64,000 nt of DNA from positions 1 through 64,000 of the forward strand of contig NZ_AP023423.1 of NCBI RefSeq assembly GCF_021654335.1, written 5' to 3'. The notes beneath the pieces are model-generated. The model saw only the letters and a program-made list of their open reading frames with translations. It was not told the DNA's origin and made no database searches. Below are positions 38,124 through 43,143 of this stretch, piece after piece. A program made the position numbers and the translations under genes. Within the stretch, counting starts at the first letter, position 1. Every line of letters starts with the position of its first letter. The DNA is from Sideroxyarcus emersonii. GTDB lineage: Bacteria > Pseudomonadota > Gammaproteobacteria > Burkholderiales > Gallionellaceae.

Positions 38124-38726
38124 TCAGGCATCGCGCCGGAAGCGATAGACGGCGGTAGTGCCGCGCAGGCTGGGCAATACATGCACGTCGCGACCATCGG
38201 CCATCACATGCCGCCCGAGGATGCGTATCTGCAGGTGAGCGCAGAGGATCTCGAAATCGTTCAGCGTGCACAGGTGCACGTTCGGCGTGTCGTACCACTG
38301 GTATGGCAATTCGTCCGAGACCGGCATGTTGCCGCGCAGGACCTGCAGGCGATTTTTCCAGTAGCCGAAATTGGGAAAGCTGACGATGCCTTCGTGGCCG
38401 ACGCGCACGATCTCGTTCATCAGCGCTTCGGTATGGTGGGTCGCCTGCAGCGTTTGCGACAGGATGACGAAATCGAAGGATCCATCTTCGAAATCCGCGA
38501 TGCCGGATTCGAGATCGCTCTGGATCACATTCACGTTATTGACGATGCAGGCGGCGATGTTGGCGTCGCTGATCTCCACGCCGTAGCCGCGCACGGCACG
38601 GGTTTCGCGCAGGTAGCGCAGCAGGCTGCCGTCGCCGCAGCCGAGATCGAGTACCGAGGAGCCCTGCGGTATCCAGGCGGCGATGGCGGCGAAATCGGGC
38701 CGCGACAGGATGATGGACGAATTCAT
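38124..38726 (-). CDS. metW: Methionine biosynthesis protein MetW
   Basis: MetW is a methyltransferase-fold protein that pairs with MetX in proteobacteria that make methionine via O-acylhomoserine; it is needed for full MetX activity in some species. The 200-residue product has the SAM-binding motif [15 protein letters not shown] and the [20 protein letters not shown] segment typical of MetW. Its start overlaps the metX stop by 4 bp. No further catalytic features stand out. Confidence 0.93.
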
Positions 38727-39859
38727 GGCGAGGTCCCTTCTGCTGCCACGCGATCCAGGTAATTGCGCATCACGGCGAAATACTGCTCATCCTGCATCAG
38801 GAACGAGTCATGGCCGTGCTGGGAAGAGATTTCGGCATAGCTCACGTCCAGCTTGTTGTGCAGCAGGGCGTGCACGATCTCGCGCGAACGCTGCGGCGAG
38901 AAGCGCCAGTCGGTGGTGAACGAAACGACGAGGAACTTCGCCCTGGCGGCAGCGAATGCGCGGTTCAGGTCGCCGTCGAGCTCGCGCGCCGGGTCGAAAT
39001 AATCCAGTGCCTTGGTCATCAGCAGGTAGGTATTGGCGTCGAAATAGGCTGCGAACTTGTCGCCCTGGTAACGCAAATAGGACTCGATCTGGAATTCGAT
39101 GTCGTAGCTGAAGTTCAGCTTGCCATGGCGCAGTTCGCGTCCGAACTTGTCCGCCATCGCATCGTCGGAGAGATAGGTGATGTGGCCCAGCATGCGCGCC
39201 AGGCGCAGGCCGCGCGTCGGTACCACGCCGTGCTGGTAGAAATCGCCGCCGTGGAAATCCGGGTCGGTCAGGATGGCACTGCGCGCCACGTCGTTGAAGG
39301 CGATGTTCTGGGCAGTGAGATGCGGGGCGGTGGCGATGGCCAGCACATGCCGCACGCGATCGGGATAGGCCAGCGCCCACTGCATGGCCTGCATGCCGCC
39401 CAGGCTGCCGCCGACCACGGCGGCGAAGCAGCGTATGCCAAGATGGTCGGCGAGGCGCGCCTGCGTTTCCACCCAGTCTTCCACGGTCACCACCGGAAAG
39501 CTTGCACCATAGGGTTTGCCGGTGCGCGGGTCTTTGCTGGAGGGGCCGGTGGAGCCATGACAGCCGCCCAGGTTGTTCAGGCCGACGACAAAGAACCGGT
39601 TCGTGTCGATGGGTTTGCCCGGCCCCACCATGTTGTCCCACCAGCCGACATTCCTGGCATCGTCCGCATAATGGCCGGCCACATGGTGGTGACCGGATAA
39701 CGCGTGGCAGATCAGGATGGCATTCGACTTGTCGGCGTTCAGGGTGCCATAGGTCTCGTACATCAATTCATAGTGCGGCAGCACCGCGCCGCTCCTGAAA
39801 GTGAGAGGCGTGTCGAAAATGGCGCGCTGTGCGCTGACGATGCCAACTGAAGCGTTCAA
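38723..39859 (-). CDS. metX: Homoserine O-acyltransferase MetX, TTG start
   Basis: MetX acylates homoserine, the first step of methionine synthesis. The 378-residue alpha/beta-hydrolase protein has the oxyanion and substrate motif [19 protein letters not shown], the nucleophile elbow [10 protein letters not shown] (Ser152 with this start), and the C-terminal His in SQHGHDSF. I chose a TTG start at 39859 because GGAG lies 5 bases upstream and the family length fits. A longer frame to 39943 runs into the riboswitch terminator, which makes it unlikely. In the MetX/MetW-type pathway the acyl donor may be succinyl-CoA or acetyl-CoA; this cannot be settled here. A SAM-II riboswitch lies upstream. 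Confidence 0.92.
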
Positions 39860-39871
39860 AGGGACTCCAAA

Positions 39872-39905
39872 GAAAAACCCGCACAGCTTGGTGGCTAGAG
39901 CGGGT
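39872..39905 (-). terminator. Terminator hairpin inside the metX leader
   Basis: On the minus strand ACCCGC (39905-39900) and GCGGGT (39882-39877) form a stem with a 17-base loop, followed by T5-C-T3. It lies between the SAM-II aptamer and the metX start codon, only 12 bp from it, and could act as the expression platform by transcription attenuation. Confidence 0.75.
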
Positions 39906-39908
39906 CTT

Positions 39909-39965
39909 CTCGCTTTAGCTGGTATGTTTAACGTGCCCCGCAAGCTGAACTCAAATCGGCACCGG
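39909..39965 (-). promoter_or_regulatory. SAM-II riboswitch upstream of metX
   Basis: On the minus strand the leader has the SAM-II layout: P1 stem GTGCC / GGCAC enclosing GATTTGA and AGCTTGCGG, followed by GTTAAACATACCAGCTAAAG with the conserved GCTAAA that forms the pseudoknot. This matches the SAM-II core (P1, GAUUUG, GCUUGCNG, GUUAAA, GCUAAA) as I recall it for Agrobacterium metA/metX leaders. It lies upstream of metX, the expected target. Confidence 0.9.
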
Positions 39966-39992
39966 ACGAAGTTTCTGTGTTTTGGCGGATCG

Positions 39993-39998
39993 TGTCAA
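39993..39998 (-). promoter_or_regulatory. Probable -35 element for the metX leader
   Basis: TTGACA on the minus strand is a perfect -35 consensus. At 17-base spacing the -10 would be GAAACT (39975-39970), which is weak. The expected transcription start is about 39963, right at the first base of the SAM-II aptamer. Confidence 0.5.
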
Positions 39999-40025
39999 CC
40001 CTGAAGGCCTTGCCGCCTTCAGGGT
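39998..40025 (-). terminator. Hairpin between hemB and the metX promoter
   Basis: An 11-bp perfect stem (ACCCTGAAGGC / GCCTTCAGGGT) with a 6-base loop lies 26 bp after the hemB stop. There is no T tract, so it may be a weak or factor-assisted terminator of hemB. Confidence 0.5.
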
Positions 40026-40050
40026 GGCGAATCGATCCGGTGTTGCGTTC

Positions 40051-41067
<1,017 letters not shown>

Positions 41068-41100
41068 TTATCAAATTACCGGAACTATTTTCGCATAGTC

Positions 41101-41217
41101 CCCTCAGAGTCAGTGAGCGGCGTAAGTTGCTTCCCGTTTCTCCTCCCTGAGCGGGTGTCTTTACCCTGTAAAGACCTTCTGCCCCTGACCTCCCCCTTTG
41201 GTTCAGGGGCTTTTTTT
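41101..41217 (+). ncRNA. Candidate C-rich small RNA between hemB and engB
   Basis: This gene-free stretch has three hairpins in a row on the plus strand. Hairpin A is CCCG...CGGG (41133-41155) with a 15-base loop containing CTCCTCC. Hairpin B is an 8-bp perfect stem GTCTTTAC-CCT-GTAAAGAC (41157-41175). Hairpin C is GCCCCTGA...TCAGGGGC (41181-41210), loop CCTCCCCCTTTG, followed by T7 (41211-41217), a rho-independent terminator. Both flanking genes run on the minus strand, so no gene would need this terminator. The C-rich loops (CTCCTCC, CCTCCCC) are complementary to Shine-Dalgarno sequences, a feature of trans-acting small RNAs. The transcription start is not fixed; about 41100-41106 fits a CATAGT -10 at 41094-41099. 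Confidence 0.7.
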
Positions 41218-41260
41218 ATCCATGATATCCGAAGGTGAGCCGAAATCGGGTGTGCAGGCC

Positions 41261-41860
41261 TTAATCCTGGGCGGCGAACCAGCTCGCGATCACCGCTTCA
41301 GCTTCATCCATCCCCAGTTTTTTCAGGCTGGAAAAAAGTTGCACCGTACATTGCGGGAAGTGTTCGGCTAGGAACTCCCTGACTTCGCGCAGCGTCCTGG
41401 TCGATTCCTGCCTGCTCAACTTGTCCGACTTGGTAAGCAGGATGTGGATAGGTTTCCCGGTGGGTGCGAACCAGTCCAGCATGCCTTGATCGCGCTCGGT
41501 AAGCGGATGGCGGGCATCCATGATGACCACCAGGCCACACAGTTCTTCGCGCGTCTGCAGATACTCGCTCAACAGTTGTTCCCAGTGCGCCTGAACATCC
41601 GGCGGCACCTTGGCATAACCATAGCCGGGCAAGTCCACCAGGTATCTATGGTCGCCGAGATCGAAATAGTTCAAGTGCTGGGTGCGTCCCGGCGTCTTGC
41701 TGGTGAAAGCCAGTCGCGTGTGGTTGGCCAGCGTATTGATGGCGCTCGACTTGCCGGCGTTGGAGCGGCCGACGAAGGCGACCTCCCTGCCGCCGTGCAG
41801 CGGCAGGTCGCGCATGTGGTTGACCGTGGTGTAGAAGGTCGCTTTGGAGAAGAGTCCCAC
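41261..41860 (-). CDS. engB: GTP-binding protein EngB (YsxC/YihA)
   Basis: EngB is an essential GTPase for 50S ribosome assembly and cell-division timing. The 199-residue protein has G1 GRSNAGKS, G3 DLPGYGYA, G4 TKSD and G5 SSLKK, with the characteristic [14 protein letters not shown] switch I segment. I chose GTG at 41860 because it overlaps the hemL stop by one base (TAGTG) and gives the usual distance to G1. A much longer open frame upstream lies within hemL and is spurious. Confidence 0.95.
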
Positions 41861-43143
41861 TACTGCCAGACCGAGAATATCTTGTCTGCTGCCGCGACGG
41901 TCGCTGCGATATCCGCTTCCGTATGCGCTGCCGAGACAAAGCCGGCCTCGAATGCCGACGGCGCCAGATAGTGGCCGGCATCCAGCATGGCATGGAAGAA
42001 GCGGTTGAACGCTTCCTTGTCGCATTTCATCACCTCGGCATAGCTGGTCGGCAATGTCTTGCTGAAATACAGGCCGAACATGCCGCCGACCGATTGCGCG
42101 CAGAAGTCGATGTTGTGTTTCTTCGCCGCAGCGGTAAGGCCCTCGGTGAGCTGTTTCGCCAGCTTGGCGAGGTTGTCGTAGAAGCCGGGCGCCTGTACCA
42201 GCTGCAGCGTGGTCAAACCTGCAGCCACTGCCACCGGATTGCCGGACAGCGTGCCGGCCTGGTAAACCGCACCGAGCGGAGCCAGGCAGTTCATGATGTC
42301 GCGGCGGCCACCGAACGCAGCGGCGGGCAGGCCACCGCCCATCACCTTGCCCAGCGTGACGAGGTCGGGCTTGATGCCATAGTAGCCCTGCGCGCCTTGC
42401 AGGCTGACGCGGAAGCCGGTCATCACTTCGTCGAGGATCAGCACCGCGCCGTGCTTGGTGCACAGGTTGCGCAACGCATCGAGGAACTCGCGCTTGGGCG
42501 CGACCAGGTTCATGTTGCCGGCCACCGGCTCGACGATGACCGCGGCGATCTCCTTGCCCATGTCGGCAAAGGTTTTTTCCAGGCCGGCCGCATCGTTGTA
42601 GTCCAGCACGGTGGTCAGCGCGGCGATCTCGGCAGGCACGCCGGAAGAGCTGGGCTGGCCGAACGTCAACGCGCCGGAACCGGCCTTCACCAGCAGGCCG
42701 TCGGAGTGGCCGTGGTAGCAGCCTTCGAACTTGACGATGCGCGAACGCCCGGTGAAGCCGCGTGCCAAGCGGATCGCGCTCATGGTTGCTTCGGTGCCGG
42801 AACTGACCAGGCGCACCATTTCCAGGCTGGGCAGGATCTTGCACAGCAGATTCGCCAGCTCCAGTTCGCTTGCGGTCGGCGCGCCGAAACCGAGTCCCTG
42901 CGCCGCCGCATCCTGCACCGCCTTCACCACTTGCGGGTGGCAGTGACCGACGATCATCGGTCCCCATGAGCCGACGTAATCAGTATATTTTTTTCCATCC
43001 GCATCCCATACATAAGCGCCCTGCCCGCGCTGGAAAAACAGCGGCGTACCGCCGACAGAGCGGAAAGCGCGCACCGGCGAATTGACGCCGCCGGGGATGA
43101 CCTTCTGGGATTGTTCGAAGAGGGATTCGTTTTTGGAAGTCAT
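41860..43143 (-). CDS. hemL: Glutamate-1-semialdehyde aminomutase
   Basis: HemL converts glutamate-1-semialdehyde to ALA using PLP, the C5 pathway step before HemB. The 427-residue protein has [20 protein letters not shown]-like [44 protein letters not shown] and the Schiff-base lysine segment [18 protein letters not shown]. Length matches the family (E. coli 426). It overlaps thiE by 4 bp and engB by 1 bp, so it is in a transcription unit with them. hemA is not in the window. Confidence 0.97.

Follow-up and report, generated by a model that had tools for sequence, protein, structure and literature searches.

The window (the whole 64,000-nucleotide stretch of Sideroxyarcus emersonii DNA that was analysed) contains a putative small RNA gene in the gap between hemB, an open reading frame at 40051-41052, and engB, which encodes a YihA/YsxC GTPase recognised from its translation at 41261-41863. 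Both genes lie on the minus strand and the RNA on the plus strand, with hemB diverging from it and engB converging on it. The putative transcript spans 41114-41217 (104 nt, its start placed from the promoter described below) and consists of three hairpins and an intrinsic terminator: hairpin 1 (41115-41132; arms GAGCGGC and GTTGCTT), hairpin 2 (41133-41155), whose anti-Shine-Dalgarno loop TCTCCTCCCTG occupies 41139-41149, hairpin 3 (41157-41175; arms GTCTTTAC and GTAAAGAC), and the terminator (41181-41217), recognised from sequence and folding, with a second C-rich loop, CCTCCCCCTTT, and then T7. Folding of 41101-41219 gives three hairpins plus the terminator hairpin at -41.8 kcal/mol; shuffled versions average -29.2 (sd 3.3), which corresponds to a z of -3.8, and none of 200 was as low. 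A sequence-only reading of the same DNA had described hairpins and a terminator on the plus strand of this gap, two minus-strand neighbours with no plus-strand gene ahead, and loops with the motifs CTCCTCC and CCTCCCCC. Sequence and fold bear out the first of these, the open reading frames bear out the second, and direct reading places the motifs at 41140-41146 and 41189-41196. The range that it gave, 41101-41217, does hold the RNA, but 41101-41113 belongs to the promoter and the -35 box (41081) lies outside.

Since no plus-strand gene lies upstream, the terminator belongs to the RNA of the hemB-engB gap. It could be argued that a hairpin situated between two genes is a mere terminator, accompanied by repeat-like hairpins of the flanking genes, and that there is no functional RNA. 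This is hardly credible: the U-run is of use to the plus strand only and both neighbours are on the opposite strand, the loop and the promoter are conserved (see below), and a homologue has been seen by Northern blot and dRNA-seq (PMC5688073), so that the idea is already contradicted.

The RNA belongs to a named family. In a cmscan search with Rfam 15, RF02837 (anti-hemB) matches 41131-41219 of the plus strand with 61.5 bits against a gathering cut-off of 49.5 (E 6.4e-12 for the whole window), and this is the single above-cut-off match in the entire window. The sequence-only reading had held that no named family could be assigned; the covariance comparison with Rfam that it recommended proves this wrong, because the score exceeds the cut-off. 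The position, in the hemB-engB gap and on the opposite strand, is likewise that of anti-hemB. The anti-hemB RNA of Burkholderia cenocepacia, ncS04, is expressed as a 105 nt RNA according to dRNA-seq and Northern blot, with reported Hfq binding (PMC5688073), and the family is also known from Burkholderia pseudomallei (PMC3521395). The window RNA, with a predicted length of 104 nt, resembles ncS04 and its family in its full-model covariance match, its hemB-engB position and the loop TCTCCTCCCTG. The open-access literature records no function for the family. Hairpin 2 is where the Rfam model starts; the present analysis adds hairpin 1 and, ahead of it, the sigma-E-type promoter, and R1, a covariance model trained on anti-hemB-type RNAs with the window locus among them, matches the transcript span 41114-41217 at 90.4 bits. 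The locus is a true, well-conserved sRNA of an already catalogued family, and for the S. emersonii lineage its anti-hemB RNA is without prior description in the open-access literature found.

At E 0.001, the anti-hemB model has matches in 94 of 100 family genomes, 154 of 200 order genomes and 168 of 369 class genomes. When 53 diverse homologues are aligned from hairpin 1 to the terminator, 22 of the 27 base pairs have changes on both sides, and the covariation score is 0.449 versus 0.235 after shuffling (0 of 500 shuffles as high), dropping to about 0.1 once the partners are slid by one column. Both-side changes affect all seven pairs of hairpin 1, which lies outside the Rfam model, and all eight pairs of hairpin 3, and the stem of hairpin 2 covaries as well; the support for hairpin 1 is equal to that of the other hairpins. 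The CCTCCCT in the loop of hairpin 2 is invariant (53/53), a count somewhat favoured by the choice of homologues partly by a CCTCCCT-like core; this requirement dropped only 3 of 90 loci, and the core was no condition of the model search. CCCC in the terminator loop is found in 36 of the 53. A constant loop carried on varying stems is what would be predicted for a loop that pairs, and both the hairpins and the CCTCCCT loop are kept across Beta- and Gammaproteobacteria. The sequence-only reading had proposed a trans-acting type of sRNA with anti-Shine-Dalgarno loops; with hairpins and loops conserved in relatives, that proposal survives and is well supported by conservation across classes.

The Rfam name suggests a different role, that of a cis-antisense RNA which controls hemB by base-pairing, either to the hemB leader or to a transcript reading through from engB into hemB. 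The RNA is on the strand opposite hemB, and its start is 62 nt away from the start codon of that gene. In both the family and the order the RNA is placed between hemB and engB: of the loci checked, 30 of 31 and 25 of 29, respectively, have hemB next to it. In addition, a review lists hemB as a predicted target of the Hfq-bound Bc7 of B. cenocepacia (PMC6321483). However, the RNA does not overlap the hemB coding sequence, and its conserved parts are loops and covarying stems, with no hemB-complementary stretch. The same RNA also stands without hemB in distant Gammaproteobacteria, where polA is upstream and engB still convergent; engB is thus the neighbour retained beyond Betaproteobacteria. S. 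emersonii itself has a second copy that adjoins parE: it lies at C1:2347483-2347588 on the minus strand, flanked by parE and a gene for an EamA-type transporter, behind its own GGAACT promoter element, and scores 47.3 bits with RF02837 (just below the cut-off) and 75.2 bits with R1, whose training set includes it. Control of hemB in cis therefore seems quite improbable, and because the RNA occurs without hemB, the name anti-hemB should not be taken as a function. Two or more copies of the RNA are found in many family relatives, and some Gammaproteobacteria have two to four tandem copies, a few hundred nt apart, at the same locus. In many distant Gammaproteobacteria the polA-sRNA-engB locus has a di-haem cytochrome c gene (c4-like) close by (seven instances noted). 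On the other side of hemB in the window, a sub-threshold match to the SAM-II riboswitch (SAM_alpha, RF00521; 39898-39972, minus strand; 32 versus 36 bits) adjoins the 5' end of a metX-like gene (38723-39943, minus strand).

Ahead of the RNA, on the plus strand, is a sigma-E-type -35 box, GGAACT (41081-41086), which is conserved among homologues, and after a 17-nt spacer a -10 box, TCAGA (41104-41108), one base off the TCTGA-like consensus of 77 homologous loci. This arrangement, GGAACT-N17-TCAGA, looks like the sigma-E promoter consensus, GGAACTTTT / GTCAAA (PMC1804206). The element GAACY-N15-18-TC occurs upstream in 77 of 87 homologous loci versus 60 of 4464 control windows (1.3%), and its distance is nearly fixed, almost always 58-62 nt ahead of the RNA core. 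An independent scan for the -35 box together with the RNA core, using one genome per species for 84,980 species, gave at least 80 loci; in all 80 matches listed a TC follows 16-18 nt after GAACT, though the pattern did not require it, and 77 of these 80 adjoin hemB, engB or polA. S. emersonii has a single rpoE, followed by open reading frames read as rseA and rseB, and upstream of rpoE is GAACTT-N16-TCTGC, in the same layout as the sRNA promoter element. A strict pattern with TCTNA is found in only two places in the genome, and it misses the window copy because the -10 box there is TCAGA. From these sequences we infer that RpoE would use the promoter at 41081-41108. The element as defined is lacking in 10 of the 87 homologues, so a different sigma factor may serve in some lineages. 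Among six homologues without GAACT, its place is taken in some by AT-rich or TTGACA-like sequence, which suggests a change of sigma factor in those lineages. In B. cenocepacia, none of the tabulated conditions changed ncS04 significantly, and hardly any sRNA was induced by 20 min of SDS (PMC5688073).

The sequence-only reading had also likened the RNA to the alphaproteobacterial cuckoo RNAs, a comparison that stands as a way of working and falls as a family assignment. Cuckoo RNA is characterised by a CCUCCUCCC-type anti-Shine-Dalgarno motif, and hairpin 2 has CTCCTCCCT; because of this motif in its loop, the window RNA may work like cuckoo RNA while lying outside the family. The alphaproteobacterial models stay below their cut-offs, with 17.5 versus 58.8 bits for cuckoo/ar14 (NfeR1, RF02344) and 22.5 versus 41 bits for suhB/mmgR. 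The Betaproteobacteria toxic sRNA model, RF02278, reaches 18.3 versus 50 bits in the window and has no match above cut-off in the S. emersonii genome. Cuckoo/ar14 and RF02278 RNAs share CCTCCTCCC-type anti-Shine-Dalgarno loops with the window RNA but have gene neighbourhoods other than hemB-engB.

These likenesses bear on the choice of sigma factor, in that the RNA could be an anti-Shine-Dalgarno RNA driven by housekeeping sigma-70, akin to cuckoo or to the double-hairpin type (RF02278), that adjusts the uptake of nutrients when growth stops, with GAACT not a sigma-E element at all. The loop motif is common to RF02278, cuckoo and S17 RNAs, Bordetella S17L has a sigma-A promoter start and S17 represses transporters (PMC11722255), and GAACT is absent from the ten loci mentioned above. 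Yet 77 of 87 loci have GAACT-N-TC at a fixed distance, the same layout precedes rpoE, a simple scan of 39000-43000 for sigma-70 promoters found no site at the RNA locus, and the RF02278 score is below its cut-off. We consider a sigma-70-driven RNA of this kind unlikely.

The nearest experimentally studied relative of the window RNA appears to be ErsA, which the sequence-only reading did not name. ErsA of Pseudomonas is sigma-22 dependent, is encoded in the polA-engB gap, and represses algC at its ribosome-binding site with Hfq (PMC8575079, PMC6321483). ErsA (Pseudomon-1, RF01719) and the window RNA have in common a promoter element of sigma-E type (GAACTT...GTCATA in ErsA, whose gene follows polA), stem-loops bearing C-rich loops, and engB as a neighbour; the promoter of the Pseudomonas-type ErsA gene is the same in form and position as that of anti-hemB RNA. 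ErsA differs in being without the CTCCTCCCT core and in having polA at its side, where hemB stands in Betaproteobacteria. RF01719 is found in 25 genomes of the class, at least 13 of which have it at the same place as an RF02837 match (intermediate genomes), and R1 matches the Pseudomonas-type ErsA gene weakly (21.2 bits, E 0.002). A search of the S. emersonii genome with RF01719 gave no match at E 0.01, and for this reason the window RNA is filed only as a probable relative of ErsA, not as ErsA itself. Common descent of anti-hemB and ErsA at an ancient engB-linked locus is, judging from sequence, likely though not proven.

Two other RNAs share features of this locus. Spot 42 (spf) of E. coli, which is controlled by CRP-cAMP, has the gene order polA, sRNA, convergent engB (yihA), but its pairing regions differ; R1 gives only 14.6 bits on spf, a kinship could not be shown from sequence, and RF00021 (Spot 42) is absent from the window matches. 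In Xanthomonadaceae, sX13 (RF02232) is encoded downstream of polA and has three stems, and with its C-rich loops it represses mRNAs that carry G-rich sites close to their start (PMC3771888). The polA-side locus, the three stems and the C-rich loops make it similar to the RNA described here, but the window scores 16.2 versus 50 bits and sX13 is reported as Hfq-independent. The authors of the sX13 study asked whether the polA loci of other bacteria encode related sRNAs too (PMC3771888); for many Gammaproteobacteria the answer is yes, and Betaproteobacteria are linked through engB.

The reading that we favour, and hold to be probable, is that this is a sigma-E-dependent anti-hemB RNA that represses translation through its anti-Shine-Dalgarno loops in the manner of ErsA, with which it likely shares its origin. 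Envelope stress would free RpoE (sigma-E) from the anti-sigma factor RseA, RpoE would start transcription of the RNA at the 41081-41108 promoter, and transcription would end at the intrinsic terminator, at about 41217. The C/U-rich loops UCUCCUCCCUG (hairpin 2) and UCCCCCUUU (terminator) would then base-pair with the purine-rich ribosome-binding sites that target mRNAs carry, and this pairing, probably with Hfq, would lower their translation. Loops that cover ribosome-binding sites are known from ErsA, sX13, NcS27 and S17 (PMC6321483, PMC3771888, PMC5688073, PMC11722255), and by analogy those of the window RNA probably do the same. Within the sigma-E response the RNA would be the arm that represses, a role that ErsA has in Pseudomonas. 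Computation has established family membership, structure, loop conservation, the promoter-like element and synteny; Hfq use in S. emersonii, repression and targets are what we infer.

With somewhat less confidence, we lean towards a broader interpretation in which anti-hemB, ErsA and related RNAs belong to a single ancient sRNA lineage tied to engB. In most Betaproteobacteria and many Gammaproteobacteria its transcription would depend on sigma-E, and it would repress translation with its conserved anti-Shine-Dalgarno loops. This lineage would supply the missing RNA arm of the betaproteobacterial sigma-E response. What appears to be new is the regulatory and evolutionary side, namely a promoter of sigma-E type and a connection with the ErsA locus; in the open-access literature, no paper linking anti-hemB to sigma-E or ErsA was found. 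With this promoter and the shared engB locus, an Rfam family so far lacking an assigned function gains a role open to testing and a relative that has been studied, and an ErsA-like locus with a stress-type promoter suggests a purpose for the widespread anti-hemB family.

A search of the S. emersonii genome for targets with one pattern (AGGGAGGAGAAA, one mismatch allowed) gave 13 places, two of which are the RNA genes themselves. Several others fall at start codons, including those of a 63-aa protein with UCAGGGAGGAG before its ATG, a 219-aa membrane protein and a lipoprotein-like protein; these start-codon matches are too few to count as evidence and are no excess over what any anti-Shine-Dalgarno sequence would give. 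Elsewhere in the genome, from C1:1189794 onward, two tandem hydrophobic open reading frames of about 36 aa follow a sigma-E-like promoter (GGAACTTTTATCAACTACTACGGTCTTA), and the second is also preceded by GGGAACTTCC. Their products begin MKKAYQEAAKFVRWVV and MKRTYEDVTEFIRWGI, and from their sequences they are possible unannotated small membrane proteins of envelope stress.
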